Shown here in pieces: positions 19,449-63,294 of a stretch of DNA of 64,000 nt. Source of the stretch: Eunapius fragilis (lineage: Eukaryota; Porifera; Demospongiae; Spongillida; Spongillidae); the NCBI GenBank assembly GCA_963681505.1, contig OY811980.1:7325572-7389571 (forward strand), given 5' to 3'. The first letter of the stretch is position 1, and each line of letters begins with the position of its first letter. A program made the position numbers and the translations under genes. The notes beneath the pieces are model-generated. The model was given only the letters and a program-made list of their open reading frames with translations, was not told the origin of the DNA and did no database searches.

Positions 19449-19512
19449 ATGGATGCGTGTATGAAGTCTGTACCGTCTCTACTATTGTTGATCGCTCTGG
19501 AACAAGTGTCAG
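19449..19512 (+). CDS. Signal-peptide exon of gene 2
   Basis: ATG at 19449, hydrophobic core VPSLLLLIAL, donor TCAG|GTGCAT in phase 1. The same exon with start at the second Met precedes gene 3 (27693-27744) and gene 5 (51918-51969), which supports it as the real first coding exon of the family. Confidence 0.8.
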
Positions 19513-22500
19513 GTGCATGCATGGTTAATTAATGTATGATGGGCGCAGCAGTCTACAGATTTCAGCCTTTGCATTCAGAATTACCTACAGTTGTGAAAGA
19601 GAATATACGGGGAGGACAGAGGGAGGAAGAATGTTTGGTCTGTAGATGACAGGGCGGATACAGGGAGGGGAGTCCATCGTAATGAAGGAGAGTGTGTGAG
19701 AGGCGGTTCTCCTCTCCGGGCTGGGAGGGCATTGTAGACTTGTCCATCGAAGACTGGGGCGCTCAACGGTGCTTTTTTGTTCGACGTTGATTACTTATAC
19801 GAACGTAGACAGACGTACGTACATGTATGTTGACGTTGAAATTAAACCACGGCGGCCACAGCTGGTCAAAAGAAAAACAGGCTATACAATGAACAGCCCT
19901 AGCCCCCAGGCCAGCTTATAGGGACAGCCATAGTCAGTACTCCACAGACCTGTCAGACCAGCTTATAGGGACAGCCCTAGTCCCCAGGCCAGCTTATAGG
20001 GACAGCCCTAGTCCCCAGGTCAGCTTATAGGGACTGCCCTAGTCCCCAGGCCAGCTTATAGGGACAGCCCTAGTCCCCAGGTCAGCTTATAGGGACAGCC
20101 CTAGTCCCCAGGCCAGGTTATAGGGACAGCCCTAGTCCCCAGGTCAGTTTATAGGAACAGCCCTAGTCCCCAGACCAGCATATAGGGACAGCCCTAGTCA
20201 GTAGTACAATCTCTTTCCCAAGATCAGTATCACTAACAGTTGAGGATGGACAACCTCCTCATGGTGCAATATCCCATGTGTCCCTTCATATCTTTAGACC
20301 AGCCATATTACTGGTATGAGAAATGATGGAATTAAATTGAGGTCTTTATTATAAAAAAGCACGACAAAACATTATTGGGTGGTGGAGTCAATGGCTCTTA
20401 CTCCTTCCATGGGATCATTGCTATATATGTGTTGGCATGTGCATATAAATCAGTGAACTAAGTGTTCTTTAACCACCACAGGCCAGACTGTTGGAATCTT
20501 TTGGAATGTGAATGGTGCAAATCTAATGGTTGCCAACAACAGTCTGGTGACTCTGGCGGCAATACAAAACAGAGTGAATACATCATCTACCCAAAGGTTT
20601 CCTCTGGTGTGTAAGGGTATAACAGGCGGTCAGTGGTATCAACCAAATGGAGCCCTGTTTCCACTAGCAACACCAGACCCTGTAACCATGGGAGGGTTGG
20701 GTCAACGAAATGTGTCAGTAGGAGTAGAGCTGTATCGTGGAACTCCTTCTGACTTCCCACATGGTGTTCAATGTTGTACCAATACCACCATCACACTCTG
20801 TGTTGGAATGTACACTGATCTCACACTAGCAGCATCATCAGGCATAGCTATATCAGGCACTATGGGCTATGCTCTCTCTGTAGCAGCCACTTGTAAGTAG
20901 AGAGGAAAGTACATCACATGTGTTATGGAAGTGTTGACTCTCCCACAGATGGTCCTAACATCACAGGAGGTGTCCAGTTTCAGCTGTTGACACCTACAAA
21001 TGTTGATTCACCAGTGTTCCAGTTGACCTGCACCAGCACTAGTTCTCCTCCTACAACTGTGCAGTGGACCATCAATGGAAGTCCAGTGAATGGTGGTAAC
21101 TATGCTTCCTCTCAGATAGTGACAGATCGACCAACATCTACTTACAACAACACCCTGACTGTGACTGGAAGAGCACCTGGGATGTACACATGCACTGTCA
21201 CCACTACCTGCTCACCAGTGTGTGGAGCTACAGGGTTTACTCTCAATCCAAGATCCACTACCTCATTCCTCAGTGTATCAGGTAAGTACTGCCTATGAAG
21301 AGTGTCTTGTACCTATAGACATGTACCTCTATACAGGTCCTCCTGCCCTACCCACTGGTGTCACTGCTGTACAGTCTGGTCCCACATCTGTCAGTGTCTC
21401 TTGGACTGCAGCAACCTCAGGTGGTTCAGTGAGCAGATATGATATCTACTATGTGGCTAATGGAGTCCCAAGTACAAGTGGTGGTTCAACCACTTCTACC
21501 TCTTATGTCCTAACCAACCTTCAAGTTGGGGTTCAGTACAACATCTCTGTCATAGCTGTGGGCACTTATATGCCATCTCTGAGTGTTGGTGTCATACTGA
21601 CTCTGAGTGAGTCATCATATTATAGTTATGGTACTTAACCAAGTGTCCTTAAAGCAATGTTTTAATTATACGTTCATCGCATTAATTTAGTATCCATACC
21701 CAAATGTTGCATCACCGCTTGCAATGTTTTTATGACAGTGTGCTTACCGACATGCTAGTTTCACCACCGCGCTATATACCGGAGCGTGTCGTTATGCAGA
21801 ACTGAGAATAAATTTTCTGCCATCACTTCTTTCAATTGCAGCGTATTTAAGTCTCGTCTTTTTTAATGCTAATCTATATCTATTTCATATTTAGTCTATG
21901 ACAGTACATAAGTGCATGTATTGTACCTTTTTACTGCAGAACGCGTTAGGCATGGATAACTCGTCTGAAAAAGTGTGTATAAAAACTTTTCCTTCGGCAG
22001 GACAAAAAGTGAGCCTCAGTTGGAACGGTAACCAGGTGGCCAACAACAGCATGGTCAGCAACCAGCAGCTGTACACATCCAGCTACTGGAGCTACACCAC
22101 TTACACACCCCTACGGTGCGAGCTCGCCGGATATGGCAACGCTTCGGCGAGGCAGTGGTATGGACCGACGGGTGCAGCCCTCCCGTCAAGGGACTTGTCC
22201 GTCAGCGCAGGGTACGGCCAGGTAATGGTGCAAGGCACTGGTGTGGACCTTTACAGTGGAGGGGTTAGCTATACCACGCAAGGCGTTCACCGCTGCGATA
22301 TCGTCGACGCAAACGGAACCTTATATCGCCTGTACGTTGCCATATACAACGACCCGAGTCAGACCTATGCCACGGCTAGTTGTGAGTTCCCCTGCACACA
22401 CAAAGGCACGCATGCATGTACATGTTATTGTATGGCGATAAATCAGGTCCCCAGACTTAATTATCTATTATACATGTTACCTGCAGACGGACCAAGCAAT

Positions 22501-25500
22501 TTCGGCGGTATCCAGTACCGGCTAATGACAGCTCTACCGGTCGAACCGGCAGTATTCCAGCTTTCCTACACCACCACTTATTCTCCCGCCACGATCGTCC
22601 GGTGGACGTACAACGGCAACATGGCGAACGGTACTACCTTTCAGGTTGTGACGGATCTGCTATTGTCCACCTATCAGAACGTCCTGGTGGTGACAGGCAA
22701 GATGGCGGGTGTATACACGTGCACCGTTACCACTACGTGTACACCAGCGTGTGGAAGCTTCACGGGACCACGTTCAGTCACCGCATCTCTAACCATACCA
22801 GGTACATACGCCGGCGGGTACTTTAAAAATTAAATTTTGACAATCACGTAATACAATTACGTACACATAACCGCAATGGAAAACTGTAGGGTCAGTCTGT
22901 TTTTAGCACCACTAAATGTCACGTGTAGCGTAAGAGCAGTGCTGTTTTGAGGGCAAAAAGGGCAAGACTTAATTTTAAAATAGCCACTGTTTTTGACAGA
23001 CATATCCTAAATGGCATACTAATACATACTGTTCACTGTTATGACCACATGTTGGCTCCACCCCCATGCAATGGCTCCACCCCCATGCAGCTCAGCCTGG
23101 ACCACCCACCCAAGTCACTGTGTCACAAACTGGACCCACCTCCTTGAGGGTGTCGTGGGTCCCAGGCAGTGGACCACTGAACGGTTACTATATCCTCTCT
23201 GGGTCAGAGGGAACACCTACTTACAGCACTGCGACCTCAGCATTACCATTCTATGACATCAATACTGGCCTCCAGTCAAATAACCTTATCACTGTAGCAG
23301 CCATAGGAACATACTTCACAAGCAGCTGTAAGAAAAAGTCCATTGCATATAAACATGTCTTCAACTGACTCTCCTCATGTCTCTCCATCCCTCTCCCTCT
23401 CTCTTTCTGCCTTCCACTTCATCCTCACCCCCACCCCACTTGCCTCTCTACTCCCTCTCCACCATCCCTCCATTCCCACTCTCATCCTCCCCTCTCTTCC
23501 TCACCCTTCACCTCTCCCCCTTCCACCTCCCCCCCCATGCAGTCTCACCTGTGGCACCCATTATAACAATCAACAGTCTTGCAACGCTCATAACCCTCAC
23601 ATGGAGGCAGCCTGATGAACCCTTTGGTGTTGGGGCTGTGGACCGATACGAGGTGTCCTACATCTATGTGGGGCCATGCCCTGCAATCGTTCACAAAGGC
23701 ACAGAAATACTGGACAGCTCCGCTACGGCCCTGACACTCTTGGGGATGCGAGAGTTCAGCACCTACAATTTGACCATAACCTCCGTGAAAAATGGTGGCA
23801 GCTCTCTTTCCAACATCCAGGTTTTAACGCCCACAGCAGGTAAGGTTGATGATATGCTTATCATTTTTAGGGTGTCACTGGATCCGCACTATTTCTTCTG
23901 TCCCCATTCCCTCTGCTTCTATTTCTTACTGCCACTGTGTACACCTGTGTCTCTACTTTGTCCCACACTTCATCCGTTTGCATAGCTCCTGATGCTCCAC
24001 CCACTTCCATCAATGAGGTTGCACGTAGCCACACCTCCCTGACAGTGGGGTGGAGTCCTGTTCAATGCATTCTTCAGAACAGTTTGATTGCCAAGTACGT
24101 GGTCAGATATGGCCTACCTTATGGAGTAAAGGCCACAGCTGAGACCTCAGTGAACTCCTTCACTGCTACAGGACTCACCCCGTTCACTTCATACATGTTT
24201 GAAGTGGCTGCTGTCAACTCTGCAGGACAGAGAGGTCCATTTAGTTATCCCTTCATCATGGACACAAAGCTAGGCAAGTTCACGTGTAATAGTAACCTTT
24301 GTTAGAGGCACTGGTAATGTGGTCCCAGTCCACACTCAATACATTACTTGTTCTCACCCTCTAGGACCACCGACAATCCTGAAACGTGCTACCCTCACTC
24401 CAACATCAGTTCTCTTCTCCTGGCTCCCTAGTGATGGAGACGGTCGCACCAACTATTCTGTCTCTTATGTGTACCTGGGACCATGCAGTGGTTTGAGCAG
24501 TGCTGGTGTGGCCTACACCAATACCACCCAGTACACCATCCAAGGTCTGGAGGAGTACAGCAGCTATGCTGTGACCATCAGGGCAGCAAGGGCTGGGCAG
24601 GTGACTATGGACAACTCCACAGTAGTTACCCTGGCAACAGGTAAGTCTATCCTGTAGGAATATCAACATCAGATATGAATGGTTATCTGTAACACTTTTC
24701 AGGGCCATCTGACTCAGCTACTGGTGTGGTTGCATTATCCAAGACCATCACGGCAATCACAGTGGGCTGGGGACCTGTTCCCTGCATCATGCGTAACAGT
24801 GATGTACGAGGATACAGAGTACGATACAAAAGCCTCAACAATGGGACCTTGCATCAGGAAGAAAGCGTTGGCATGACATTCACTGCGACAAAACTGGATC
24901 CATACACCGACTACTCATTTGAAGTCGCTGCAATCAATGTGGAGGGATTGGTTGGACCATACTCTACACCTGTTATTGTGAAGACCCTCCAGCGTGAGTC
25001 TCCCCATCAGTGGGGAAGTAACTACAGAACTGTTCAGTTGTAAATCCACCCTCATCATCTCCTTCCAGCACCCTCACCTGTGATCAGTATTACGACCGAT
25101 GGAGGCAGTCCCACAGATCGGAGCAACTTCTCCATGACCTGCAGTGTGTCTGTTCCCACTGAGGCACTAGGAACACTCACTGTCAGGTGGCTGGGCCCTC
25201 GCAGTCCACAGGTGGCACTCAACACCACTGCTGTTTCAGACGTTGGTGGAGCAACCATTGTACTTGGTTTGAAGTTCTCCCCCATCTATACCAAAGATGG
25301 GGGGTGGTACTCCTGTGATGTCATTTTTCAGTTGTACCCACATACAGCAGCAAACTCCAGAACAAAGGTGACAGTCCAAAGTGAGTATATAATTAATATA
25401 TCCAATTGATGCTCACCATGATGCCATGTTCTGTTACACAGGTGATGCACTCTTCCAAGTGAAGCTGGGTCCAACAGACAACTGTGTCCAGTGGCCATGG

Positions 25501-25878
25501 AGCATGGTGCCTATCAATGGAACCATGGGGATGATGAATGACAAAGCCATGGAGACAAAAGTTGATCAAGTTCAGAGGGCTGTCTTTGGTACAGTGGAGA
25601 GCCTCCTTCTGAAGAACTACTGTTCCTGTAAAGCAGACACCATTGATTGGGTATACAGCTGCCAAACCGGCTCTAGCGAGGTTGTGTTCAAGTACTCACT
25701 CCACCTGACAAGTGAACGTTGCAACTGTAGTGCATCTGATGTGATCTCCGTCATGGATCAGTGGGTGGAGTCTGCAGGAACTGTTCTCATGGGAAGGTAC
25801 CAATTCAGGACAAGTCAGGACTGTGCCTCCACAAAGATTCTGTCCTTTGATGACCCAGAGTGCAAGAAAAGGTCTTGA
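19449..25878 (+). CDS. Gene 2: secreted Ig/FN3 multidomain protein, 13 exons, 1303 aa
   Basis: Exons: 19449-19512, 20482-20892, 20949-21281, 21337-21606, 22001-22381, 22487-22801, 23091-23327, 23543-23839, 23986-24273, 24365-24640, 24703-24993, 25069-25380, 25442-25878. All internal joins are phase 1. Domains: signal peptide 1-21 (MDACMKSVPSLLLLIALEQV), Ig A 22-158, Ig B to 269, FN3 C to 359, second Ig pair A' and B' to 591, five FN3 to 1054, Ig to 1158, then a Cys-rich C-terminal domain of about 145 residues. There is no membrane helix, so it is probably secreted. The intron after 24273 has a GC donor (AG|GCAAGT). Every domain is open. Partner unknown; Ig/FN3 chains usually mediate adhesion or recognition. 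Gene 6 is its close paralogue. Confidence 0.88.
19895..20215. repeat. 31-bp minisatellite in intron 1 of gene 2
   Basis: About nine copies of a 31-bp unit (CCAGGCCAGCTTATAGGGAC + AGCCCTAGTCC). The same repeat lies in intron 1 of genes 3 and 5 and in front of module A of gene 6. Confidence 0.95.
25442..25878 (+). CDS. Cys-rich C-terminal domain of gene 2 (last exon)
   Basis: 145 codons plus stop, one exon. Cysteines fall in NYCSCKAD, WVYSCQTG, ERCNCSASD, QDCAS and PECKKRS. The middle has a helix/strand-like pattern (VVFKYSLHLTS ... VISVMDQWVESAG). I do not recognise a named family; a SEA-like or other extracellular alpha/beta fold is only a guess. The gene 6 copy (62858-63294) is almost identical. 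Confidence 0.75.
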
Positions 25879-26792: not shown

Positions 26793-27692
26793 TTGGTATT
26801 ATTGGTATTGGATAATTGAGACGAGGATGAAGACATTAGCAAGGGGGACATGACTATATCTGTTTATTATATATATGAAGGACATCAGCCCGTTGAGAGA
26901 TGGAAATGTGTGCATGCTTGTCATGTACTGAGAACCCTCACATCCTCAGCTTGGGTCTGACCGGGATATCCGTTGCAGAGAATACATGTTGATTTTGAGG
27001 GGGCGGATTTGGTTTTGTAAACTTCTGATGCCCAACACAGAATTTTGCAACTGTTTTTTTTTTCTGGCATGCAGGCTTCCATTAAAAAATTGTATTGGCC
27101 CTAGGGAAGTCACTTTCATCAGAGAGTCGAATATGTACCATTGGTGCCATGCATAAATTACTACAGTGCTCGATTAATTTATTGGGGTCAATGAATGGAA
27201 AGATATCACACAAAGTGGCCACAGTCATGCCCAACACAATAGCTCAGAAAACAGTTGAGGAGATTTTGCGACTTCAAAATACTATGCTGTTTGTGCCAGA
27301 TGAGTCTCAAAACCCACTTAGCCTAACTAAAATTACACGCATATTACATATAGATATTCAAAAATCGTTTCTCTTTACTTTTTAGAAGCTGTGGCTTCTC
27401 ATGGAGGAATTGCCATGATTGCAAAAAGAATAATCAATAATCGCTATTTTTCCTTGGATTAAATAACTATCTCAAAAAGTTTTCGAGAAGGCAAGTTAAC
27501 ATGTTAACTTAATAAACTAACAGGTCACGCCCCAGTACAATATATTAATAAAATAACAGGAGTACAGTATATTATAACTCTCAAAATGTGCACCCATTTC
27601 CCGTCGAATAATAATGTGCGGTTACTACATTGATTACTGACAACCTTTGTATGGTAAAAGTGCATTTGTCAGTCTTTGAGATTGATGCGCGG
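26793..27692. other. Intergenic; part duplicated near 51590
   Basis: 27350-27692 matches about 51595-51917, both lying directly before a family signal-peptide exon. It therefore should include promoter sequence, but no core element stands out. The remainder has no recognisable gene. Confidence 0.4.
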
Positions 27693-27744
27693 ATGAAGTC
27701 TGTACCGTCTCTACTATTGTTGATCGCTCTGGAACAAGTGTCAG
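27693..27744 (+). CDS. Signal-peptide exon of gene 3
   Basis: ATG at 27693 encodes MKSVPSLLLLIALEQVS, then TCAG|GTACAT donor in phase 1. An upstream ATG at 27684 runs into a stop after three codons. It fits the phase-1 acceptor of module A at 31073 across a 3.3-kb intron. Confidence 0.75.
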
Positions 27745-28740
27745 GTACATGCATGGTTAATTGATGTATGATGGGGCATGCACTAGTCTATACTGAGTTT
27801 TCAGTCATGTCTGTGTCACAGACAGCAGTGTACAGGGAAAAAGAAGGAAGTACAATACATGCAAGTATATTTGGTTGGTACTTGACAGGGAATGGTAAAT
27901 TATTAATAAGGGGGAGGGTGCGAGGTCGATATATCCCGCTCATACTGGACAAGATGTACTTCTAATTAAGAAAGCAAAGAAGTAAATGACATAAACGGTT
28001 ACTTGCCTTGCTTGCCTTCAACACTTTTCCGAAATAGACATGCACGTCATATTTTTACCGTACAACTGAAAGTTTTGATGAACTTTTCATCACACAAATA
28101 TGACGGTCTTATAAAACGTTTTATTTCGGTCCCTTTGCTATATTTGAACTTTACTTCGGCAGCCTATACTCTTAAGTAGCAATACAATTGTAGGATAACC
28201 AAACCATGGGGATGAACTCTGAACTCAATCAGGTCTGTTTTTAAATCGTTCTTAAGGTTTTAAAAATCGCTTCTCCTAGCTGATTTTTTCGGGTTGACAA
28301 CGCGCCCAAAATAATTGCGACTCGGGAGTGAAATTATATAGAGACGCTGTGTTAAAAAGATGTAATTAAAAATAAAGTAACTGATATGGACCCAACTACT
28401 GCCATACTTCTTACGATGCTGCCATCAGACGGGTCTCTAGACTACTCTTACGCTAGTTTTGAGCCAATGAGATATAGCAAAATTGAATACCACTCATAAT
28501 GGAATATGCAGTAAAATATATTCTGATAGGAAAGAATAATCAGCCATTTATTTTTCTGTTTGCCCCGAAATTGTCTCGTGGATGCGGTGTTAAGTGTTAT
28601 GCTATGCCCAACACAACAGCTCAGAACCGCACGGTTACTGTAGAGATTTTGCGACATCAAGAAACTGTGTTTGAGGAGAGAGAGGGGGGGGGGGGGGGGG
28701 GGGAGGGGGGGGGGTTGAGAGGCATGGTTAAGCCATTCCA

Positions 28741-29720
28741 GCCTTAGGACATTCTACAGGCAAGCGGTCTGAAGTCTAGGAAATTACTCCAGAGAGCATT
28801 TGTAAAATATACCAGGCATGATCCCCAGCATCATCAGGACCAGCTACTCCGTCAGAACTTAAATTGCATGATGATACAGGTGATAGTGAAATATTCCCAC
28901 GTGTCACTCAGCTCAGCTGGTACCAATGTCCGAGATGGCATTCATGGCCATGTAAGTAAAACTGCTCCAACCCAATAAGAACATTGAGAAATATGTGCAT
29001 GCTTGCTTTACATGTCAAGAGATGAAAGCTACTGAGAACCCTTAAATCCTTGTCAGGTCTGGAATATACAGGTTGATTTAGAAGGGGCTATATATCATAG
29101 TTGGGTGATTGCAGCGTAAGAGGTACAGATTTTTAATTCCTTCTTGGTCGTTACGAAAAAAATGCGTTAAAGTTAGGGAAAATTGGTGGGGTGGACACAC
29201 CGGGCGAAAACCTTGCATAATACTCAACATCTGGAGCAAACTGAAAACTGGATGTTAAATTTCTCCGATCAGAATCGCGCTTGGTTTTTGAGCTGCTATT
29301 TCACGGCTGCATATACCATGATCAGTGATATTCCAATCTCAAACAGACACACCATGGTTATGCTTATACTTGAGATGCCCAACACAGAATTTTTTTTGGC
29401 AGGTATACTGCATGCTGCCATAAATTGTGTCAGATATAATGGCCAATGGAAGCCATGCACGTTCAATAGTATCCCATAAAAAATTACATGCAGCAGGTTG
29501 GTGGGGTCAATAAATAGAAATAGATTTTATGCTTTTAGTTATACTCACTCAAAGTGGCCAGAAGTATTTGAGATGTGGGCCCAACACAACAGCTCAGAAA
29601 ACAGTTGAGAATTTGTGACAGGGATTATCGACATACTAACTGCAAGTGGTCATCTAATGGCCACAATTGACAGAAGCAATGTAAGTGCTAAGCTCCACTC
29701 ATTGCACTGCAGCCCCTCCC
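28741..29720. other. Partial third copy of the duplicated upstream block
   Basis: Matches 17640-18910 and 49450-51120. It lies inside intron 1 of gene 3. An uninterrupted Helitron target is seen at about 29060. The G-rich stretch just before it (28685-28715) is a broken G homopolymer. Confidence 0.7.
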
Positions 29721-30438
29721 GCCCCAGGAGCCAACGCTTTTTGCATCATTAGCTTCGACAATAAAACATGATGATGTATAGGTTGCATTTAAACTATAGT
29801 CAGGTTAGAAAGTACTTCATTTCACATATGGGGCATCAAATTATTGATAAGAGATTCTGATTCCTATAGGTACTTTACAACTTTTTCTTTCTTACGCACT
29901 TGGATATGAATTCCTAATTACGCGTATATTTCATTTGTACGCGGCGCTCGTTTCTGTTATTGCGTTAGGTCCATATATGGGATCGTGGACCTCATGTATT
30001 TATTCCATATTCTAAGAGACACCTATGCCCTCTACAATTAGTCCCTCCATCATGGAGTTACAGTGGCCCGAATTGCGCTCATTTAGTGGTACATTTTAAT
30101 TGCTCGCGTCAACGTCGATGCTCCTTCCTGGAGTATGTGGTAGGTCCCTTCAGCTGCCACGACCACATATGTTTTGGTGCAAGCATAATTTATTTCTTCA
30201 AAGCCCATGCTATATAATGCTGGGAAACAAAGGTTTCAACACAGCAACAGCAACATATATATGTATGACACGATATGTATGAATGAATACTTTGCTTACT
30301 CGAACATTCTAATTTATTGTTGGCAAATTAGGTCAACATCAATTTCAATGAAGTGGTTAATGCGAGGGTTTTAATACATGGTATACTTTTATTCACGTTA
30401 ATTTATTCATGATCGACTGGTAGTGGGGTACCTAGGAC

Positions 30439-30439
<1 letters not shown>

Positions 30440-30475
<36 letters not shown>
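30440..30475. repeat. 36-base C homopolymer followed by a MITE-like end
   Basis: An unbroken C run, then GGTATCCGCCTCTG, which resembles the inverted-repeat end of the MITE at 33349-33642. Confidence 0.85.
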
Positions 30476-30480
<5 letters not shown>

Positions 30481-30630
30481 CCGCCTCTGTAAAGGAGAGT
30501 GGGTAGGAGGCGGCTCTCCTTGCTGGGAGGGGCATTGTAAGCTAAGGACTGAGTTTTCAACCGTGCTTTAAATTGTTCGACATTAATTACTTCATAACTT
30601 ATACATGTTTAAAACCATGGCAGGCACACC

Positions 30631-30787
30631 TGGCCAGCTTATGAAGGACAGACCTAGTCCCCAGGCCAGCTTAGAGGGACAGCCCTAGTCCCCAGGCCAG
30701 CTTATAGGGACAGCCATAGTCCCCAGGCCAGCTTATAGGGACAGCCCTAGTCCCCAGGCCAGCTTATAGGGACAGCCCTAGTCAGTA
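30631..30787. repeat. 31-bp minisatellite in intron 1 of gene 3
   Basis: About five copies of the same 31-bp unit as at 19895-20215, about 290 bp before module A. Confidence 0.9.
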
Positions 30788-32166
30788 GCACAATCTCTTT
30801 CCCTAGATCAGTATCACTAACAGTTGGGATATACCATTACCTCCTCATAGTACAATATCCCAAGCCTTAACCCTTCAAGTGCCAGCCATGATACCAAGGA
30901 AATGGTGGAATCAGGCTAGATGAGGCTATACAATACAAAAAAGGCATCACAAAAACAATTGTGTGTTTTTTGGGTGGTGAGTCAATGGGAACAGAGTAAA
31001 CAGTTCACTCCTCCCCTCACTCCTAACAATGATGATGTCCACCTGTGCTTGGCATCACTATATCCCACACAGGCAAGACTGCTGGGGTCACATGGAATGG
31101 CATGACCGTAGCCAACAACAGTCTGGTGACCCTGGCAGTGGTCCTGCAGAGAGTGAGTGTGGTATCTGGATCATTGTTTCCTCTGGTGTGTGAGGGTATA
31201 ACAGGTGGACAGTGGTATCAACCAAATGGAGTCCTGTTTCCACTAGCAACACCAGACCCTGTAACCATCCCTGGAGGGTTGGGTCAACGAAATGTGTCAG
31301 TAGGAGTAGAGCTGTATCGCGGAACTGCTTCTGTCTTCCCACATGGTGTTCAATGTTGTACCAATACCACCATCACACTCTGTGTTGGAATATACACTGA
31401 TCTCACACTAGCAGCATCTGTACCAATAGCCCCTACTAGCTATGTTCTCTCTGTAGCAGCCACTTGTCAGTAGAGAGGAAAGTACATCACATGTGTTATG
31501 GAAGTGTTGACTCTCCCACAGATGGTCCTAACATCACAGGAGGTGTCCAGTTTCAGCTGTTAACACCTACAAATGTTAATCCACCAGTGTTCCAGTTGAC
31601 CTGCACCAGCACTAGTTCTCCTCCTACAACTGTGCAGTGGACCATCAATAGAAGTCCAGTGAATGGTTGTAACTATGCTTCCTCTCGGATAGTGACAGAT
31701 CGACCAACATCTTCTTACAACAACACCCTGACTGTGACTGGGAGAGCACCTGGGATGTACACATGCAATGTCACCACTACCTGCTCACCAGCGTGTGGAG
31801 GTACAGGGTTTACTCTCAATCCAAAATCCACTACCTCCTCCCTCAGTGTATCAGGAAGTACTGCCTATGAAGAGTGTCTTGTACCTATAGACATGTACCT
31901 CTATACAGGTCCTCCTGCCCCACCAACTGGTGTCACTGCTGTGCAGTCTGGTCCCACATCTGTCAGTGTCTCTTGGACTGCACCAACCTCAGGTGGTCCA
32001 GTGAGCAGATATGATATCTACTATGTGGCTAATGGAGTCCCAAGTACAAGTGGTGGTTCAACCACTTCTACCTCTTATGTCCTAACCAACCTTCAAGTTG
32101 GGGTTCAGTACAACATCTCTGTCATAGCTGTGGGCACTTATATGCCATCTCTGAGTGCTGGTGTCA

Positions 32167-32828: not shown

Positions 32829-33348
32829 TACTGACTCTGAGTGAGTCATCATATTATAGTTATGGTACTTAATCATTACCCTCTCCCTCCTCTCCCATAC
32901 CATTATCCCCCTCACCAATGGTAGCACAGATCACCCCAACATCCATCACTGTCATGTGGTCACAGGCTTCTGGAGAGATAGGTACTACCTACACCCTCTC
33001 CTACACCTACCAGGGACCATGTGCTGGTGGCGGTGGCGGTGGTGGGAATGTGTCCAATGGCACTACTACCCAGTACACCATCACTGGACTGCAGGAGTTC
33101 AGTCCCTACACCATCACCCTCACTGCCACCAATGGTGGAGGGATTAGCCCTCCGGCTAGTGTGATGGTCAACACCTCCTCTGCAGGTGAGTGAACAACCT
33201 AATCTCAAGATGGCTGACCCCCTTCTCTCCCCAACAGCTCCCTCTGCTCCTCCTAACAGCCTCACTGAAGTGAACAAGACCTACTCCACTGTCACAATCA
33301 GTTGAGGGGAAGTTCCCTGTGTGGACCAGAACAGTGTGATAGTGGGGT

Positions 33349-33642: not shown

Positions 33643-33884
33643 GGGGTACAGTGTTCTCTATGGACCTGTGACCAGAGGTGTGAGAGGGACAGTAGCTACC
33701 TCTGGGAGGGCAGTGACTGTGACTGGACTGGCTCCTTATACCAACTACTCCATTGAGGTGTCAGCAGTCAACAGTGATGGAGCCATGGGCCCTTATACCT
33801 CTCCTCTCTTTGTGGTAACTGAGCAAAGTGGTAAGTGTGAGGTGGATGAGTATTGAAGAGGTGAATTATATGTCTCCACACTAG

Positions 33885-51917: not shown

Positions 51918-54900
51918 ATGAAGTCTGTACCGTCTCTACTATTGTTGATCGTTCTGGAACAAGTGTCAGGTACAGGCATGGTTAATTAATGTACGACGGG
52001 GGCAGCAGTACACATTTCAGCCTTTGCATTCAAAATTACCTACAGTTTTGACAGAGAATATACGGGGAGGACGGAGGGAGGAAGAATGTTTGGTCTGTAC
52101 ATGACAGGGCGGATACAGGGAGGGGAGTCCAACGTAATAAGGAGAGTGTGTGGGAAGCGGTTCTCCTTCCACTCCAGCTTCGGGCTGGGGGGGGGGGGCA
52201 TTGTAAGCTTGTCCATCGAAGACTGGGGCGCTCTGCGATGCTTTTTAAATTCTTCGACGTTAATTACATACATGTCCGGCGCTTCAGGCCCGATACGAAA
52301 AGCGGGGAGGGGGAGGGGGGGGGGGGGGGGGGGCTTCAGGCACATGCGCAATACGAAAAGCAGGGGGACTGCTTAGCAGAAGAGGGGGAGGTACCTTATA
52401 TGAAAGGGGGGGTTGCAACCCCCAAACCCCTCCCCTCCCCCCCCCCCCCCCCCCCCCCCCCCCGTATCCGCCTCTGCGTTTAAAACCACGGTGGGCAAAC
52501 CTGTCAAAAGAAAAACATAGTCCCCAGGCCAGCTTGTAGGGACAGCCATAGTCAGTAGTCCCCAGACCGGCTTATATATATATATAGGGACAGCCCAGTC
52601 CCCAGGCCAGCTTATAGGGACAGCTCCCTTCATTGCACAACGCCCAGTAAAAGATGATCCATGAATGCCATTCTTTTTAGTTGCTAAATGTCCATCACGC
52701 TGCTCCTTCAAACCATCACTCCAGGCATCACTCACCTCAATGGAGTCACATTCTCTTTAATAACAGCGGGCATCTTAGCTTCATCAACGTTCGGAGTAAT
52801 TAACACTGACGGACCTGCTTCACTACCAAGATCAAGATCAGTAACATTTACTGGAGCTACAACCAGTGAGTATGAAGCGATCGGTTCACCTATATCATCG
52901 TGCGGAGCCGAGTTCTTAAGAAAATCTTCCATGAACGAACTAAGCATTTCTTGTTCATCAATTCTGGCCAACTTTATTCTGCAACAAGTAAATAAAAACA
53001 TTCTCTACGAGAAAGTTGGTGGGATATAGGATTTGATTATGACATTGGTGATGTAAAAAGCAAGGAAACAAGGTCTTATCAGAAGGAAAAATGTCATAGT
53101 CCTATATTTAGCACATTTCTAGGGCATGTGTTGTTTGTGTGCTAAATATAGGACTATGACATTTTCCCTTCTGATAAGACCTTGTTTCCTTGCTTTTTAC
53201 ACCACCAATGTCATAATCAAATCCTATATCCCACCAACTTTCTCGTAGAGAATGTTTTTATTTACTTGTTTTCTTTATTTTTTTTCATACCATTAAATTA
53301 TACAAGACATAGGAGGCTGATAGTCGATTGTTTATCAAAGTATTATATTATATAAAAGCGAGTCCTCCAGCCGATTCTGAAGCTATTGGTGAAATTTTCA
53401 TCGCTTAGAAATGTTCCTGTCCTGAGTTATGCGTTGCCAAGAAGAAGGAGGAGAAGAATAAGAAGACGACCCGCCCCTTGTTCCGAGACTGGGTACGAGG
53501 ACGGGCAGTACACTCTTGTTCTCAACAACCACGCGGTTCAGCGACATGAAACAAAAACGAAACTACTCATTTTTGACTTCTAGATCGATTGCTAAAACAA
53601 GCTACACGATCCGATCGTCGGGAGTGTTTTACAGACGGGTCGCGTTTTTTAATGACATTCATAGTCGGGGTCAAATCCTATATGGAAGTTTCTAACGAAA
53701 CTTCCGATATTCCGCTCCAGACTTTTTACGCATACCTCTTGTCTGCAGAGACATAGCACTTCAATTGATATTTAGTAGGCTTCTGCAAGTCTGCAAAGTG
53801 TAACCGATATGAATACTATCATCGACTGCGGGTTATCCAAATAAACGAGTTGTATAGTTAATTATTTAATTCCTTAAAATTAATGGATAATTAGATATGT
53901 AACGGTTGGTGATATGTAATCGCTTTCACAGGAAAAAGTTATAAACGTCCAGCCTGGATTTTTTTTAACAAAAACCCATCCTGGAATGGAGCAAATAGCG
54001 TTAAAACAATCCTGGGATTGAGCGTCCAGGGTGGGAATAGATATGGTTCTACGAACTTCTACCCTGGTTATGTCGAACAAAAACCATGTTGAGGTAATCA
54101 TTATATTCGTACTTCAACATGGGTTTACAAAACCAGGGTAGAACAACCACTATTCCCACCCTGGACGTTCAATCCCAGGATGGTTTTTACGCTATTAGGA
54201 TGGGTTTTTGTTAAAAACCAGCCAAAAAAATCCAGGCTGGACGTTTATAACCTTTTCCTGTGTTTGTAGCCTCAATTAAGATTGTAGGCGCATTTAATCG
54301 GCGCATTCCAGACTAACTACTTCACTAACTTCAGGCGTAATTCTGGCGCCCTAATTACATTTTGGCGCCCCTGTATTTAGGGCCGCTGGGGGGGCAATTG
54401 CCCTTTCACTCCCGCCCCCACTTGAGCATGGAATTACTGTACATGTATGCCCACATCAGGGCATGGCATTACTGTACATGTATGTCCACATCAGGACTTG
54501 GCATTACTGTACATGTGTGCCCACATCAGGGCTTGGCATCACTATATCCCACACAGGCCAGACTGCTGGGATCACATGGAATGGCATGTCTGTAGCCAAC
54601 AACAGTCTGGTGACCCTGACAGTGGTCCTGCAGAGAGTGAGTGCTGTATCTAACTCACGATATCCTCTGATGTGTGAGGGTATAACAGGTGGACAGTGGT
54701 ATCAACCAAATGGAGCCCTGTTTCCACCAGCAACTCCAGACCCTCCTTACACCCCCGGAGGGTGGGGTCAACGAAATGTGTCACGAGGAGTAGAGCTGTA
54801 TCGTGGAACTCCTTATGACTTCCCACATGGTGTTCAATGTTGTACCAATACCACCACCACACTCTGTGTTGGAATGTACACTGATCTCACACTAGCAGCA

Positions 54901-56370
54901 TCATCAGGCATAGCTACATCAGGCACTATGGGCTATACTCTCTCTGTAGCAGCCACTTGTAAGTAGAGAGGAAAGTACATCACATGTGTTATGGAATTGT
55001 TGACTCTCCCACAGATGGTCCTAACATCACAGGAGGTGTCCAGTTTCAGCTGTTGACACCTACAAATGTTGATCCACCAGTGTTCCAGTTGACCTGCACC
55101 AGCACTAGTTCTCCTCCTACAACTATGCAGTGGACCATCAATGGAAGTCCAGTGATTGGTGGTAGTTATGCTTCCTCTCAGATAGTGACAGATCGACCAA
55201 CATCTACTTACAACAACACCCTGACTGTGACTGGGAGAGCACCTGGGATGTACACATGCAATGTCACCACTACCTGCTCACCAGTGTGTGGACCTACAGG
55301 GTTTACTCTCAATCCAAGATCCATTACCTCATTCCTCAGTGTATCAGGTAAGTACTGCCTATGAAGAGTGTCTTGTACCAAAAGACATGTACCTCTATAC
55401 AGGTCCTCCTGCCCCACCCACTGGTGTCACTGCTGTGCAGTCTGGTCCCACATCTGTCAGTGTCTCTTGGACTGCACCAACCTCAGGTGGTCCAGTGAGC
55501 AGATATGATATCTACTATGTGGCTAATGGAGTCCCAAGTACAAGTGGTGGTTCAACCACTTCTACCGCTTATGTCCTAGCCAACCTTCAAGTTGGGGTTC
55601 AGTATATCATCTCTGTCATAGCTGTGGGCACTTATATGCCATCTCAGAGTGCTGGTGTCATACTAACTCTGAGTGAGTCATCATATTATAGTTATGGTAA
55701 TTAACCATTGCCCTCTCCTCCTCCCCAGTACCATCATCCCCCTCACCCATGGTAGCACAGGTCACCCCAACATCCATCACTGTCATGTGGTCACAGACTT
55801 CTGGAGAGATAGGTACCACTTACACCCTCTCCTACATCTACCAGGGACCATGTACTGGTGGTGGTGGTGGTGGTGGTGGTGGTAGGTCCATTGGCACTAC
55901 TACCCAGTACACCATCACTGGACTGCAGGAGTTCAGTCCCTACACCCTCATCCTCAGTGCCTCCAATGGTGGAGGGAGTAGCCCTCCGGCTAGTGTGATG
56001 GTCAACACCTCCTCTGCAGGTGAGGTGGATGACCTCATCTCAAGATGGCTGACTCCCTTCCCTTCTCTCCCAACAGCTCCCTCTGCTCCTCCTAACAGCC
56101 TCACTCAAGTGAACAAGACCTCCTCCACTGTCACCATCAGTTGGGGGGAAGTCCCCTGTGTGGACCTGAACAGTGTGATAGTGGGTTACAGTGTTCGCTA
56201 TGGACCTGTGACCAGTGGTGTGAGAGGGATAGTATCTACCTCTGGGAGGGCAGTGACTGTGACTGGACTGGCTCCTTATACCAACTACTCCATTGAGGTG
56301 TCAGCAGTCAACAGTGATGGAGCCATGGGTCCTTATACCTCTCCTCTCTTTGTGGTGACTGAGCAAAGTG
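51918..56370 (+). CDS. Gene 5: signal peptide, Ig A, Ig B, FN3 C, two more FN3; no end seen
   Basis: Exons 51918-51969 (MKSVPSLLLLIVLEQVS), 54557-54958 (A), 55015-55347 (B), 55403-55672 (C), 55729-56019 (FN3), 56077-56370 (FN3). All joins are phase 1 and open. The first extra FN3 contains nine consecutive glycines from a GGT repeat (seven in gene 3). After AGTG|GTAAGT at 56370 no further FN3, membrane or tail exon follows. The next compatible exon is module A of gene 6 at 57904, also phase 1. Either gene 5 is truncated, or genes 5 and 6 form one very long secreted protein. The corresponding gene 3 continues with two FN3, TM and tail, so 3' exons have been lost or replaced here. Confidence 0.8.
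52300..52465. repeat. G and C homopolymers with MITE-like remnants
   Basis: G-rich run 52310-52333 and C run about 52438-52463, each next to GATACG or GTATCCGCCTCTG, with AAAGGGGGGGTTGCAACCC between. They look like decayed ends of the MITE family seen at 33349. In intron 1 of gene 5. Confidence 0.65.
52517..52628. repeat. 31-bp minisatellite in intron 1 of gene 5
   Basis: About three copies, one with a TATATATA interruption. Same unit as in genes 2, 3 and 6. Confidence 0.85.
52705..52978 (-). other. Possible captured or host exon beside Helitron-like element b
   Basis: A minus-strand frame without low complexity (RIDEQEMLSSFMEDFLKNSA ... GEPIASYSLVVAPVNVTDLD), preceded by TTGCAG and ending near CCATTGAG|GTGAGTG, so it has the look of one internal exon. 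It touches the 3' end of element b. I do not recognise the protein; no neighbouring exons were found. Confidence 0.3.
52985..53707 (-). mobile_element. Helitron-like element b
   Basis: 723 bp in intron 1 of gene 5. On the minus strand it starts TC at 53707 with stem GGAAGTTTC / GAAACTTCC and ends CTTG at 52985. Host is GGAATA|TTGCAG. Palindrome 52985-53268 (284 bp) has almost perfect arms. It retains about 80 bp between palindrome and body that element a lacks. Confidence 0.85.
53927..54262. mobile_element. Second foldback element, about 336 bp
   Basis: Left end CACAGGAAAAAGTTATAAACG, right end its reverse complement; arms of about 160 bp with several mismatches (CCAGCCTGGA, CCATCCTGGAATG, CCAGGGTGGGAATAG, CTACCCTGGTT). 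No relation to the Helitron palindromes and no coding potential. In intron 1 of gene 5. Confidence 0.8.
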
Positions 56371-57482
56371 GTAAGTGTGGGGTGGGTGAATATTGAATTA
56401 TTGATAGAGATAGCAATACCTGTAACAGTACTGCACCTGTTTTAGCAATGTATGCATATGTGACCTGCCAGGAGTAACCCTGATGAATAGTACAGAACTG
56501 CTCCATTTTTAGATGAAGTAATTGTACACATATAGATGTACCAGATTTTCAGATTTATAAAAGAAGGCAATTCAAGGGATATCCATTGCTCTATATAGTA
56601 TATCGTGCTATGGACATGATTAATGAGCAAGTTGCATTCTCTGAGAAGATATCTCTTAGCTCCATCGCCTCTGTACCTTGTAGTCAGAAAGTTGTACCTT
56701 TGAAACCAGATGGTCTTCAATTCCAGTAACTTACAGTAAAATCCTCACCTGCGGATAAAGCACAATTATATTTCATTTAGAAAAACCAAACGTGCTGCAT
56801 CATGGCTTTCTGTAACAGCGAGGCTTTCATCTGACACAGAGAAGTTCCATACTGGCAGTAAGATGGTGATTGGCTTAGACAATCTCATATGGGTCTCAAT
56901 GTGCGCTATGCCCTGAGCTTTCTTGACTCCTTAGGCCACTTCTTAGTGGAATCCTTCCACAAGGCACATTTGTCGGTCCAGGTGGAAGCAGGTGCATGCA
57001 GGGTTCAGCATAGACCTCTCCCAGTCAAGGCCTGTACAAGACTGGCATCACTGCTTTTGACATCTCTGTTGTCTCACCACTTGTCTACAGTGGGAGCAGT
57101 AGGAGGTGCAGCATCAGAGGCAGCTGAGATGATAAAGCACACTGCCTTTGATGCAGAGGGTGTTGAGTTGGGTGGGTGCCCATCCCCTCTTGTGATGTAG
57201 TCTTATGGGGCATGGGGCAAGGAGGCTCAATGGTGCTTTTCTAGACTTGCATCTCCCATGGCTGTGCCACGGCAAACCTTTCAACTTTATGCAAGGCTTC
57301 ACATCCCCCTGATGAGGGCGAACTCTAGGGCTAAGATTAAGTTAGTAATTATATAATGTATTTCATACCGTGTAGCTCATGTGTGCATGCATGCTTGATC
57401 GCATGTAATGCCTGCATCATAAAATGTGTGTATCTGCAGGTCAGTGTGTTGAGTCTGCCGTATACCTTCAATCATTATTAAT
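56371..57482. other. Spacer between the last FN3 of gene 5 and gene 6
   Basis: No family module, splice-paired exon or signal-peptide exon recognised. A 103-codon frame at 56889-57200 has no recognisable domain. It could be a long intron if genes 5 and 6 are one. Confidence 0.4.
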
Positions 57483-57633: not shown

Positions 57634-57903
57634 ACAATCCCTTTCCCAAGATCACTATCACTAACAGTTGGGATGGACAACCTCATCATGGTACAATGTT
57701 TCATGTGTCCCTAAATTCTTCTGGTTGAGGATATACCAGCCATGATATCTGAGAAATGGTGGAATTAGATTATGAGTTATTGCTATCATACACAAACAAG
57801 TATATGCAAATTGCACCCTCCTCCCCTCTCTCCATATAAAGCTCTAACAATGTTCATCCAACATGATGTCCATCTGTGCTTGGCATCACTATATCCCACA
57901 CAG

Positions 57904-60900
57904 GCCAAACTGCTGGGATCACATGGAATGGCAAGACTGTAGGCAACAACAGTCTGGTGACCCTGGCAGTGGTCCTGCAGAGAGTGAGTGTCGTAACTAC
58001 AACACTGTTTCCACTGGTGTGTGAGGGTATAACAGGTGGACAGTGGTATCAACCAAATGGAGCCCTGTTTCCACTAGCAACACCAGACAATACAACTATT
58101 CCTCAATCTTGGGGTCAACGAAATGTGTCACGAGGAGTAGAGCTGTATCGTGGAACTCCTTATGACTTCCCACATGGTGTTCAATGTTGTACCAATACCA
58201 CCATCACACTCTGTGTTGGAATGTACACTGATCTCACATTTGCTGCATCATCAGGCATAGCTGCATCAGGCAATATGGGCAATACTCTCTCTGTAGCAGC
58301 CACTTGTAAGTAGAGAGGAAAGTACATCACATGTGTTATGGAAGTGTTGACTCTCCCACAGATGGTCCTAACATCACAGGAGGTGTCCTGTTTCAGCTGT
58401 TGACACCTACAAATGTTGATCCACCAGTGTTCCAGTTGACCTGCACCAGCACTAGTTCTCCTCCTACAACTGTGCAGTGGACCATCAATGGAAGTTCAGT
58501 GAATGGTGGTAACTATGCTTCCTCTCAGATAGTGACAGATCGACCAACATCTACTTACAACAACACCCTGACTGTGACTGGGAGAGCACCTGGGATGTAC
58601 ACATGCAATGTCACCACTACCTGCTCACCAGTGTGTGGACCTACAGGGTTTACTCTCAATCCAAGATCCACTACCTCATCCCTCAGTGTATCAGGTAAGT
58701 ACTGCCTATGAAGAGTGTCTTGTACCAAAAGACATGTACCTCTATACAGGTCCTCCTGCCCCACCCACTGGTTTCATTGCTGTGCAGTCTGGTCCCACAT
58801 CTGTCAGTGTCTCTTGGACTGCACCAACCTCAGGTGGTCAAGTGAGCAGATATGATATCTACTATGTGGCTAATGGAGTCCCAAGTACAAGTGGTGGTTC
58901 AACCACTTCTACTTCTTATGTCCTAACTAACCTTCAAGTTGGGGTTCAGTACAACATCTCTGTCATAGCTGTGGGCACTTATATGCCATCTCAGAATGCT
59001 GGTGTCATACTGACTCTGAGTGAGTCATCATATTATAGTTATGGTACTTAATCAAGTGTCCTTTAAGCAAAGTTTAATTTTACGTACATCGTGTTAGTTT
59101 CGTATCCAGACCCAATGTTCATCATCGCTTGCAATGTTTTTATGACAATGTGCTTACCGACATGCTAGTTTCACCACCTGAGCGTGTCGTTATGCAGCCG
59201 GAACTGAGAAATAATTTTCTGCCATCACTTCCTTCAATCGTAGCTTATTTAATTCTCGTCTCTTTTAGGCTGTTATACATCTATTTTAGTCTATGACAGT
59301 ACATAAGTGCATGTATTGTGCCCTTATTTTTACTGCAGAACGCGTTAAGCATGGATAACTCGTCTGAAAAAGTGTATATAAAAACTTTTCCTTCGGCAGG
59401 ACAAAAAGTGAGCCTCAGTTGGAACGGTAACCAGGTGGCCAACAACAGCATGGTCAGCAACCAGCAGCTGTACACGTCCAGCTACTGGAGCTACACCACC
59501 TACACGCCCCTACGGTGCGAGCTCGCAGGATATGGCAACGCTTCGGCGAGGCAGTGGTACGGACCGACGGGTGCAGCCCTCCCGTCAAGGGACATGTCCG
59601 TCAGCGGAGGGTACGGCCAGGTAATGGTGCAAGGTACTGGTGTGGACCTTTACAGCGGAGGGGTTAGCTATACCACGCAAGGCGTTCACCGCTGCGATAT
59701 CGTCGACGCAAACGGAACCTTATATCGCCTGTACGTTGCCATTTACAACGACCCGAGTCAGACCTATGCCACGGCTAGTTGTGAGTTCCCCTGCACACAA
59801 AAAGGCACGCGTGCATGTACATGTAATTGTATGCATATTACCTACGAGGGGACCCGATGGAGCGATAAATCAGGTCCCCAGACTTACTTACCTGCTATAC
59901 ATGTTACCTGCAGACGGACCAAGCAATTTCGGCGGTATCCAGTACCGGCTAATGACAGCTCTACCGGTCGAACCGGCAGTATTCCAGCTTTCCTACACCA
60001 CCACTTATTCTCCCGCCACGATCGTCCGGTGGACGTACAACGGCAACATGGCGAACGGTACTACCTTTCAGGTTGTGACGGATCTGCTATTGTCCACCTA
60101 TCAGAACGTCCTGGTGGTGACAGGAAAGATGGCGGGTGTATACACGTGCACAGTTACTACTACCTGCGCACCAGCGTGTGGAAGCTTCACGGGACCACGT
60201 TCAGTCACCGCATCTCTAACCATACCAGGTACATACGCCGGCGGGTACTTTAAAAATTAAATTATTGACAACACGTAATACAATTACGGCAATGGAAAAC
60301 TGCAGGGTCAGTCTGTTTTTAGCACCACTAAATGTCACGTGTAGCGTAAGAGCAGTGCTGTTTTGAGGGCAAAAAGGGCAAGACTTAATTTTAAAATAGC
60401 CACTGTTTTTGACAGACATATCCTAAATGGCATACCAATACATACTGTTCACTGTTATGACCACATGTTGGCTCCACCCCCATGCAATGGCTCCACCCCC
60501 ATGCAGCTCAGCCTGGACCACCCACCCAAGTCACTGTGTCACAAACTGGACCCACCTCCTTGAGGGTGTCGTGGGTCCCAGGCAGTGGACCACTGAATGG
60601 TTACTATATCCTCTCTGGGTCAGAGGGAACACCTACTTACAGCACTGCGACCTCAGCATTACCATTCTATGACATCAATACTAGCCTCCAGTCAAATAAC
60701 CTTATCACTGTCGCAGCCATAGGAACATACTTCACAAGCAGCTGTAAGAAAAAGGCCATTGCATATAAACATGTCTTCAACTGACTCTCCTCATGTCTCT
60801 CCATCCCTCTCCCTCTCTCTTTCTGCCTTCCACTTCATCCTCACCCCCACCCCACTGGCCTCTCTACTCCCTCTCCACCATCCCTCCATTCCCACTCTCA

Positions 60901-63294
60901 TCCTCCCCTCTCTTCCTCACCCTTCACCTCTCCCCCTTCCACCTCCTCCCCCATGCAGTCTCACCTGTGGCACCCATTATAACAATCAACAGTCTTGCAA
61001 CGTTCATAACCCTCACATGGAGGCAGCCTGATGAACCCTTTGGTACTGGGGCTGTGGACCGATACGAGGTGACCTACATCTATGTGGGGCCATGCCCTGC
61101 AATCGTTCACAAGGGCACAGAAATACTGGACAGCTCCGCTACGGCCCTGACACTCTTGGGGATGCGAGAGTTCAGCACCTACAATTTGACCATAACCTCC
61201 GTGAAAAATGGTGGCAGCTCTCTTTCCAACATCCAGGTTTTAACGCCCACAGCAGGTAAGGTTGATGATATGCTTATCATTTTTAGGGTGTCACTGGATC
61301 CGCACTATTTCTTCTGTCCCCATTCCCTCTGCTTCTATTTCTTACTGCCACTGTGTACACCTGTGTCTCTACTTTGTCCCACACTTCATCCGTTTTCATA
61401 GCTCCTGATGCTCCACCCACTTCCATCAATGAGGTTGCAAGTAACCACACCTCCCTGAAAGTGGGGTGGAGTCCTGTTCAATGCATTCTTCAGAACAGTT
61501 TGATTGCCAAGTACGTGGTCAGATATGGCCTACCTTATGGAGTAAAGGCCACAGCTGAGACCGCAGTGAACTCCTTCACTGCTACAGGACTCACCCCGTT
61601 CACTTCATACATGTTTGAAGTGGCTGCTGTCAACTCTGCAGGACAGAGAGGTCCATTTAGTTATCCCTTCATCATGGACACAAAGCTAGGCAAGTTCACG
61701 TGTAATAGTAACCTTTGTTAGAGGCACTGGTAACGTGGTCCCAGTCCACACTCAATACATTACTTGTTCTCACCCTCTAGGACCACCGACAATCCTGAAA
61801 CGTGATGCCCTCACTCCAACATCAGTTCTCTTCTCCTGGCTCCCTAGTGATGGAGACGGTCGCACCAACTATTCTGTGTCTTACGTATACCTGGGACCAT
61901 GCAGTGGTTTGAGCAGTGCTGGTGTGGCCTACACCAATGCCACCCAGTACACCATCCAAGGTCTGGAAGAGTACAGCAGCTATGCTGTGACCATCAGGGC
62001 AGCAAGGGGTTGGCAGGTGACTATGGACAACTCCACAGTAGTTACCCTGGCAACAGGTAAGTCTATCCTGTAGGAATATCAACATCAGATATGAATGGTT
62101 ATCTGTAACACTTTTCAGGGCCATCTGACTCAGCTACTGGTGTGGTTGCGATATCCAAGACCATCACGGCAATCACAGTGGGCTGGGGACCTGTTCCCTG
62201 CATCATGCGTAACAGTGATGTACGAGGATACAGAGTACGATACAAAAGCCTCAACAATGGGACCTTACATCAGGAAGAAAGTGTTGGCATGACATTCACT
62301 GCGACAAAACTGGATCCATACACCGACTACTCATTTGAAGTTGCTGCAATCAATGTGGAGGGATTGGTTGGACCATACTCTACACCTGTTATTGTGAAGA
62401 CCCTCCAGCGTGAGTCTCCCCATCAGTGGGGAAGTAACTACAGAACTGTTCAGTTGTAAATCCACCCTCATCATCTCCTTCTAGCACCCTCACCTGTGAT
62501 CAGTATTACGACCGATGGAGGCAGTCCCACAGATCGGAGCAACTTCTCCATGACCTGCAGTGTGTCTGTTCCCACTGAGGCACTAGGAACACTCACTGTC
62601 AGGTGGCTGGGCCCTCGCAGTCCACAGGTGGCACTCAACACCACTGCTGTTTCAAACGTTGGTGGAGCAACCATTGCACTTGGTTTGAAGTTTTCCCCCA
62701 TCTATACCAAAGATGGGGGGTGGTACTCCTGTGATGTCATATTTCAGTTGTACCCACATACAGCAGCAAATTCCAGAACAAAGGTGACAGTCCAAAGTGA
62801 GTATATAATTAATATATCCAATTGATGCTCACCATGATGCCATGTTCTGTTACACAGGTGATGCACTCTTCCAAGTGAAGCTGGGTCCAACAGACAACTG
62901 TGTCCAGTGGCCATGGAGCATGGTGCCTATCAATGGAACCATGGGGATGATGAATGACAAAGCCATGGAGACAAAAGTTGATCAAGTTCAGAGGGCTGTC
63001 TTTGGTACAGTGGAGAGCCTCCTTCTAAAGAACTATTGTTCCTGTAAAGCAGACACCATTGATTGGGTATACAGCTGCCAAACTGGCTCTAGCGAGGTTG
63101 TGTTCAAGTACTCACTCCACCTGACAAGTGAACGTTGCAACTGTAGTGCATCTGATGTGATCTCCGTCATGGATCAGTGGGTGGAGTCTGCAGGAATTGT
63201 TCTCATGGGAAGGTACCAATTCAGGACAAGTCAGGACTGTGCCTCCACAAAGATTCTGTCCTTTGATGACCCGGAGTGCAAGAAAAGGTCTTGA
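57904..63294 (+). CDS. Gene 6: paralogue of gene 2, secreted-type Ig/FN3 chain without its own signal exon
   Basis: Exons 57904-58305, 58362-58694, 58750-59019, 59400-59780, 59914-60228, 60507-60743, 60959-61255, 61402-61689, 61781-62056, 62119-62409, 62485-62796, 62858-63294. Lengths equal those of gene 2 in every exon except module A (402 against 411). Domain order is Ig A, Ig B, FN3, Ig A', Ig B', five FN3, Ig, Cys-rich C-terminal domain, and no membrane helix. The GC donor (AG|GCAAGT) after 61689 is conserved. All exons are open. The A'-B' intron is longer than in gene 2. No signal-peptide exon lies between 56371 and 57904, so it either depends on gene 5 exons or is a copy that lost its start. 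Confidence 0.85.

Follow-up and report, generated by a model that had tools for sequence, protein, structure and literature searches.

Receptor genes clustered on contig C10 of the freshwater sponge Eunapius fragilis probably form a paired-receptor system, in which opposing ends are attached to alike ectodomains; this judgment is drawn from sequence. The stretch analyzed, called the window here, spans 64,000 nucleotides (C10:7325572-7389571) of a genome of 219 Mb in 24 contigs. The ectodomain is made of three modules, A, B, and C, and four ends are joined to it. One is a secreted chain. Type X is a membrane receptor that has FN3 repeats and a tail resembling an immunoreceptor tyrosine-based activation motif (ITAM), and type Y is a membrane receptor that is short and also has an ITAM-like tail. 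The fourth end is a receptor protein tyrosine phosphatase (RPTP). The layout, conservation, and homogenization of these genes fit paired receptors best, and this is the reading favored below.

Part of the evidence comes from a cassette outside the window. In the 200 kb of the cluster that were read (C10:6.92-7.12 Mb), the order X (+), RPTP (+), Y (-) is repeated, and one cassette yields both an intact RPTP, spliced at C10:7018822-7029836 (23 exons, 1155 aa), and an intact Y, spliced at C10:7035494-7030884 (8 exons, 501 aa). The two have A-B-C, the transmembrane (TM) segment, and the first tail, or juxtamembrane (JM), exons in common. Three other RPTP copies in the 200 kb, one of them cut by the end of the stretch, have stops confined to the PTP_N piece, which is partly intron in the intact RPTP model, and three Y copies have no stop in the pieces found. 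How often does this arrangement recur? A phosphatase end with an I-set domain is found at 15 places on C10, 14 of them nearly or fully complete and none with a stop, and an A exon lies 2.8 to 4.2 kb upstream on the same strand at 14 of the 15. A DNA motif for the tyrosine tail (77 occurrences; 0 for the reversed control) lies on the opposite strand 4.5 to 8.3 kb downstream of 10 of the 11 plus-strand I-set RPTPs and within 15 kb for three of the four minus-strand ones. The first-pass annotation, which had proposed paired receptors, would have withdrawn the idea if the phosphatase exons never carried A-B-C; gene order at the 14 loci and the full splice model indicate the contrary.

The two ends of the cassette carry motifs of putatively opposing sign. 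By its parts, the intact RPTP is a receptor tyrosine phosphatase: a TM segment is followed by two PTP domains (PF00102 matches), the first (D1) with the WPD motif (GWPDHGVP) and an HCX5R motif and the second (D2) with WTPD. An I-set domain lies between the TM segment and the first PTP domain and is therefore intracellular. The immunoreceptor tyrosine-based inhibitory motif (ITIM) has the consensus I/V/L/S-x-Y-x-x-I/V/L, matched in sequence by VTYEVV in JM2 of the intact RPTP. The ITAM consensus is YxxL/I x6-12 YxxL/I; in X and Y, the tail has the sequence YDEI or YGEI, x7, YEVV, with an extra YGEI upstream in Y. This spacing arises by chance in 0.3 to 0.5% of shuffles for two X tails and in 4% for a Y tail. 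A phosphatase with an ITIM consensus on one side and ITAM-like tails on the other would suit opposing signaling roles. Is there a kinase that could read such tails? At C10:3.46 Mb, two SH2 domains (6.7e-23 and 1.4e-15), whose best solved match is SYK (4.5e-45 over both), are followed, in order, by two kinase N-lobe exon pieces below the cut-off; by these matches, a SYK-like tandem-SH2 locus is present in the genome. A receptor kinase as an additional end of A-B-C was considered and rejected, as no kinase among the matches listed (134 of 1095 candidates scored) lies inside C10:6.90-8.24 Mb.

From the middle of A to C, introns included, the ectodomain is homogenized across gene types. Identities were tabulated for 18 copies of assigned end out of 25; omitted were win_364m (the copy cut by the window start), 138556 (no PTP), another four loci, and a gene in the window whose end is unknown. 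Between types, identity is 0.90 to 0.97 in mid-A, and secreted and RPTP genes agree at 0.98 in intron 1 and 0.96 in intron 2, versus 0.30 in the 100 bases past C. Directly past C, values between types are 0.20 to 0.37, except for RPTP-Y (0.78); in the first third of A they are 0.57 to 0.77, again with RPTP-Y as the exception (0.93). The introns of X genes reach 0.81 to 0.90 against other types. The first-pass claim that A-B-C is nearly identical among loci, introns included, is therefore overstated for the first third of A (outside the RPTP-Y pair) and for X genes. In the pairwise homoplasy index (PHI) test for recombination, 0 of 1000 permutations were as low (23 distinct sequences, 136 sites). 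As descriptive figures from 22 distinct A exons, the ratio of nonsynonymous to synonymous differences (pN/pS) has an overall value of 0.73 and reaches 1.58 for columns 121-135, while pS declines between columns 1-15 (0.42) and columns 97-111 (0.05). The proposition that each RPTP best matches the Y of its own cassette was rejected, the pattern being inconsistent.

The same design is found in Ephydatia muelleri, whose sequences are predicted proteins. For the window phosphatase receptor, 31 of 42 protein hits are from this species, 17 of them named from one chromosome, Em0011. A search with modules A and B (by 5-residue words in common, among proteins 0.55-1.75 times as long as the query) returned E. 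muelleri in 31 of 31 hits, and, within the limits of that search, the A-B ectodomain looks confined to freshwater sponges. P0003, an RPTP, and P0028, of type X, agree at 85.5% over 786 aa spanning the ectodomain and have different ends. The RPTP P0002 (Em0011g928) is closest, by a narrow margin among the eight X-type proteins compared, to P0026 (Em0011g930), its near neighbor by gene number. In a tree of 18 of the 19 proteins (P0009 was omitted as too short), RPTP and X ectodomains are intermixed in one supported clade. Of the 13 I-set RPTPs that have a TM segment (a count that excludes P0001 and P0011), 10 bear an ITIM consensus in the JM region, of types such as SPYEKV and VQYATI; P0007, P0008, and P0013 do not. 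On the other side, Y[GS]EI-x7-YEVV is found in 8 of 18 TM-bearing proteins without a PTP domain; P0032 has other matches, and nine have none. In one RPTP, P0001, the TM segment and the pair of PTP domains are preceded by three A-B-C units. As evidence of polymorphism, the two E. muelleri protein sets were rejected: they are partial, and some of their A modules show 100% identity.

How might such a system work? A-B-C, sometimes with FN3 repeats, would be the ligand-binding ectodomain, kept similar across opposing receptors by gene-to-gene exchange that homogenizes mid-A to C and leaves the first third and the last loop of A to vary. The inhibitory end would be the RPTP, with its juxtamembrane ITIM-type tyrosine, its Ig domain inside the cell, and its tandem PTP domains. 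The X and Y tyrosine tails, by their ITAM-like spacing, could be read by a Syk-family kinase, and the secreted form may act as a decoy or ligand. Homologous ectodomains in linked genes, a defining trait of paired receptors, are found here; the definition also includes overlapping expression (PMC5701461). Opposing signaling, a common ligand, and co-expression are what we infer for the sponge genes.

Several observations weigh against this reading. (i) The conserved tail fails the strict ITAM, having V instead of I or L at the last position, to which the mismatch is confined, and the only strict match, in P0032, sits in a repeat-like stretch. (ii) Y has the VTYEVV site in its JM2 besides its tail, so its signaling sign is ambiguous from motifs. 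(iii) Both the X and the RPTP copy of the window are broken, each of the six X copies found in C10:6.92-7.12 Mb has one or more pieces with a stop, a split, or a cut, and no intact X was spliced in E. fragilis. (iv) The convergent pairs are duplicates of a single cassette rather than independent origins. (v) X and RPTP agree at only 0.62 in the first third of A, so that the close pair in E. fragilis is RPTP-Y. (vi) Over the E. muelleri tree, RPTP and X labels are partly clustered (24 to 25 of 500 shuffles as low). What stands of the first-pass proposal, at the level of sequence, is the intact RPTP/Y cassette, the recurrent convergence, and the E. muelleri pairing; the tails are ITAM-like only, and the assignment of A as Ig was not confirmed.

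Paired receptors of this kind need not be directed at conspecific tissue. That they face microbes or symbionts instead is a serious possibility, if somewhat short of an even one. Vertebrate paired receptors often face glycans or pathogens, the E. muelleri protein P0029 joins an SRCR domain (PF00530) to A-B-C and has no TM segment, and the ectodomain, with its 31 of 31 A-B hits in E. muelleri, looks lineage restricted.

It is rather doubtful that the genes are instead an expanded adhesion or developmental RPTP family, whose tyrosine tails would be SH2 or trafficking sites of the ordinary sort, with no opposition to the phosphatase. The order TM, I-set, PTP is also found in Geodia barretti, Halichondria panicea, Amphimedon, and Dysidea, with other ectodomains than A-B-C: CCP (PF00084) in Halichondria and FN3 in several other demosponges. 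This order suggests that A-B-C was added, in freshwater sponges, to a sponge phosphatase of older origin, the I-set PTP engine predating the ectodomain. Such an ancestry would suit an adhesion family, as does the lack of a strict ITAM in the conserved tail, but the tail spacing is kept in two species, the pairing is recurrent and convergent with shared ectodomains, and the RPTP side bears an ITIM consensus. Among 15 relatives examined, one (P0057) has a juxtamembrane ITIM match, and ITAM-like partners have so far been seen in freshwater sponges only. Several of the H. panicea I-set RPTPs (among P0057-P0069), with CCP-type ectodomains, lie on one contig with neighboring LOC numbers, and this marine sponge may have undergone a parallel expansion.

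Among the uses that a paired-receptor complex might have is allorecognition. In its specific form, the complex would be the histocompatibility (fusion/rejection) locus of freshwater sponges. Polymorphic A modules would bind one another or a secreted form encoded nearby, and a phosphatase-bearing "self, stand down" receptor would be balanced against Syk-coupled receptors with the same ectodomain to set the outcome; we regard this as unlikely. Least probable is a largely neutral, repeat-rich tandem array whose genes are alike through gene conversion, many of them dead, and do not function in pairs: the broken window copies, the damage to six of six X copies in the neighboring 200 kb, and tandem segments 99.6% and 99.9% alike (18 and 22 kb) would fit it, but the 15 I-set matches on C10 are free of stops, open reading frames (ORFs) of 23, 13, and 8 exons are intact, and E. 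muelleri predicted proteins have the same design.

Within the window (Table 1), self-comparison and exon searches place A-B-C, full or partial, at seven sites: copies at 20.5k, 31.1k, 54.6k, and 57.9k (+) and 46.9k (-) and partial ones at 35.4k (+) and 0.02-0.77k (-). The first-pass description of the ectodomain as Ig-Ig-FN3 is borne out for B and C. Module B also matches MuSK (5.5e-4). Module A, in contrast, has no Pfam family above the cut-off, even with the listing extended to E 10, and its identification with a named Pfam domain was rejected; module A' has a weak C1-set match (0.04). AlphaFold models of A and A' are of low confidence (predicted local distance difference test [pLDDT] scores of 34 and 38). 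Genes 2, 3, and 6 have a minisatellite of approximately 31 bp ahead of their A exons (19893-20199, 30629-30783, and 57500-57627), and a family of near-palindromic fold-back elements of about 260 to 300 bp is found at 5480-5772, 26531-26793, 32166-32451, 37266-37525, 50234-50528, and 52983-53270, one of them inside the last part of exon C in the X gene.

Genes 2 and 6 had been given a secreted end, and this is upheld. The splice model of gene 2 is intact (13 exons, 1303 aa), 11 of its 12 introns start with GT and one with GC, and the product has a signal peptide, with no segment that is clearly membrane spanning (top 19-residue hydropathy, 1.83); gene 6 is 93.9% identical over 6.5 kb. For the gene at 51906..56396, no membrane end was found, and it is probably truncated. 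Membrane ends with tyrosine tails are located at 34.6-35.0k (+) and 45.4-43.5k (-), as annotated; this X is broken, and this Y tail is short. The X copy (gene 3) has insertions at 32166-32830, in the end of C, and at about 33347-33642, the latter with no counterpart in the 55-56k gene, and a stop at 33303; the Y tail has a stop at 43577-43579 (-), before the last YEVV. The X-type TM segment contains a glutamate (AEF or TEF) in both species (window 34599-34733; E. muelleri P0016, P0020, and P0021), which may resemble chains that assemble with a basic partner. In the RPTP copy, A is cut, B and C have stops (35882 and 36165), and a short duplication near 41392 shifts the frame. The sharing of stalk, TM, and first tail exons between this RPTP and the opposing minus-strand gene is confirmed at 81% over 569 bp (82% for JM1 and 83% for JM2 as protein). 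The gene cut by the window start is probably of Y type; minus-strand tail motifs lie nearby, at C10:7322334-7322420.

Table 1. Features of the receptor complex in the window
Feature	Position	Strand	Basis or remark
A and B exons of a further receptor gene, cut by window start	23..774	-	tblastn of exon pieces
Gene 2, secreted type: signal-A-B-C-A'-B'-C'-4 FN3-like units-Ig-like-Cys-rich end	19449..25878	+	Spliced ORF
Module A exon	20482..20892	+	Gene 2; no Pfam assignment
Module B exon, Ig domain	20949..21281	+	Pfam Ig_3 4.2e-8
Module C exon, FN3 domain	21337..21606	+	Pfam fn3 1.3e-13
Gene 3, X type: signal, A-B-C, FN3s, TM 34599-34733, ITAM-like tail 34909-34992	27681..34992	+	Broken copy
RPTP: cut A, B, C, stalk/TM 36839-37076, JM1 37121-37174, JM2 38498-38554, JM3 38695-38793, I-set 39064-39402, PTP D1, D2	35415..42582	+	Broken copy
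I-set domain of RPTP	39064..39402	+	Pfam I-set 9.1e-15
Y-type gene, convergent with RPTP: A-B-C-stalk-TM-JM1-JM2-tail	43559..46890	-	Exon search
Degenerate B and C remnant with stops	48124..48526	+	Exon search
Signal exon, A-B-C, two FN3-like units	51906..56396	+	Exon search
Gene 6, second secreted-type gene	57903..63291	+	Self-comparison and exon search; splice model incomplete

The cluster extends past the window, with A-B-C, intact or broken, at 75 places within C10:6.90-8.24 Mb. Module A has at least 101 matches in the genome; the 87 rows on C10 gave 77 places after nine fragment rows were merged and one A' row was dropped, and 75 of these 77 fall in that interval. The secreted end occurs seven times, two of them distant, and X-like copies are found on C7, C19, and C1, the pieces on C7 and C19 without a stop. 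At C10:7.84 Mb, exon matches point to a divergent second phosphatase downstream of A-B-C on the same strand. More PTP exon matches lie on C10 beyond the A-module cluster, at 0.45, 0.74, 1.25-1.36, 5.53, 5.76-5.79, 6.32, and 8.45 Mb. Five tandem tail motifs with 57-bp spacing lie at C10:7397417-7397674, so the number of YGEI units per tail differs between loci. In C10:6920001-7120000, identity between tandem segments is 99.6% (18 kb) and 99.9% (22 kb), reflecting either very recent duplication or uncollapsed haplotypes; either would raise copy counts.

How does the complex compare with known systems? Vertebrate paired receptors include Siglec-11/Siglec-16 (PMC5701461) and CEACAM (PMC7042247), and, as far as the available parts of these sources describe them, they are alike in having linked genes, similar ectodomains through gene conversion, and different tails. 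The presumed inhibitory sponge member differs in bearing its own tandem phosphatase, and no kin of module A was found. Vertebrate ITIM receptors recruit a phosphatase rather than carry one, and a presumed inhibitory receptor with a phosphatase built in sets the sponge apart from them. The sponge aggregation factor is built of other domains than the A-B-C receptors. It was an earlier candidate for sponge allorecognition (Grice 2017, cited in PMC12065747). Compared by description only, Hydractinia Alr and Botryllus fuhc are likewise receptor families in which allorecognition candidates bear ITIM and ITAM/hemITAM motifs; the available part of the same review describes no phosphatase-bearing member, and the genetic link to fusion is theirs (PMC12065747). 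No description of the sponge complex was found in the open-licence literature searched, and the words "phosphatase" and "immunoglobulin" are absent from the available main text of the E. muelleri genome paper, which mentions tandem clusters of other families. A layout that joins one ectodomain to a phosphatase "off" end or a kinase-docking "on"-like end is known from animal immune receptors; in that literature, no account of it was found for sponges.

In 2025, the mechanisms of invertebrate allorecognition were still called "a complete mystery" (PMC12065747), and sponge self/non-self recognition has been without identified receptors of clear signaling logic. If the complex were a histocompatibility locus, the on/off logic of paired receptors, built on a different inhibitory part, would be present in sponges. 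The question of recognition becomes testable with a defined gene set shared by two freshwater sponges, and E. muelleri, one of the pair, has been described as easy to culture (PMC7385117).

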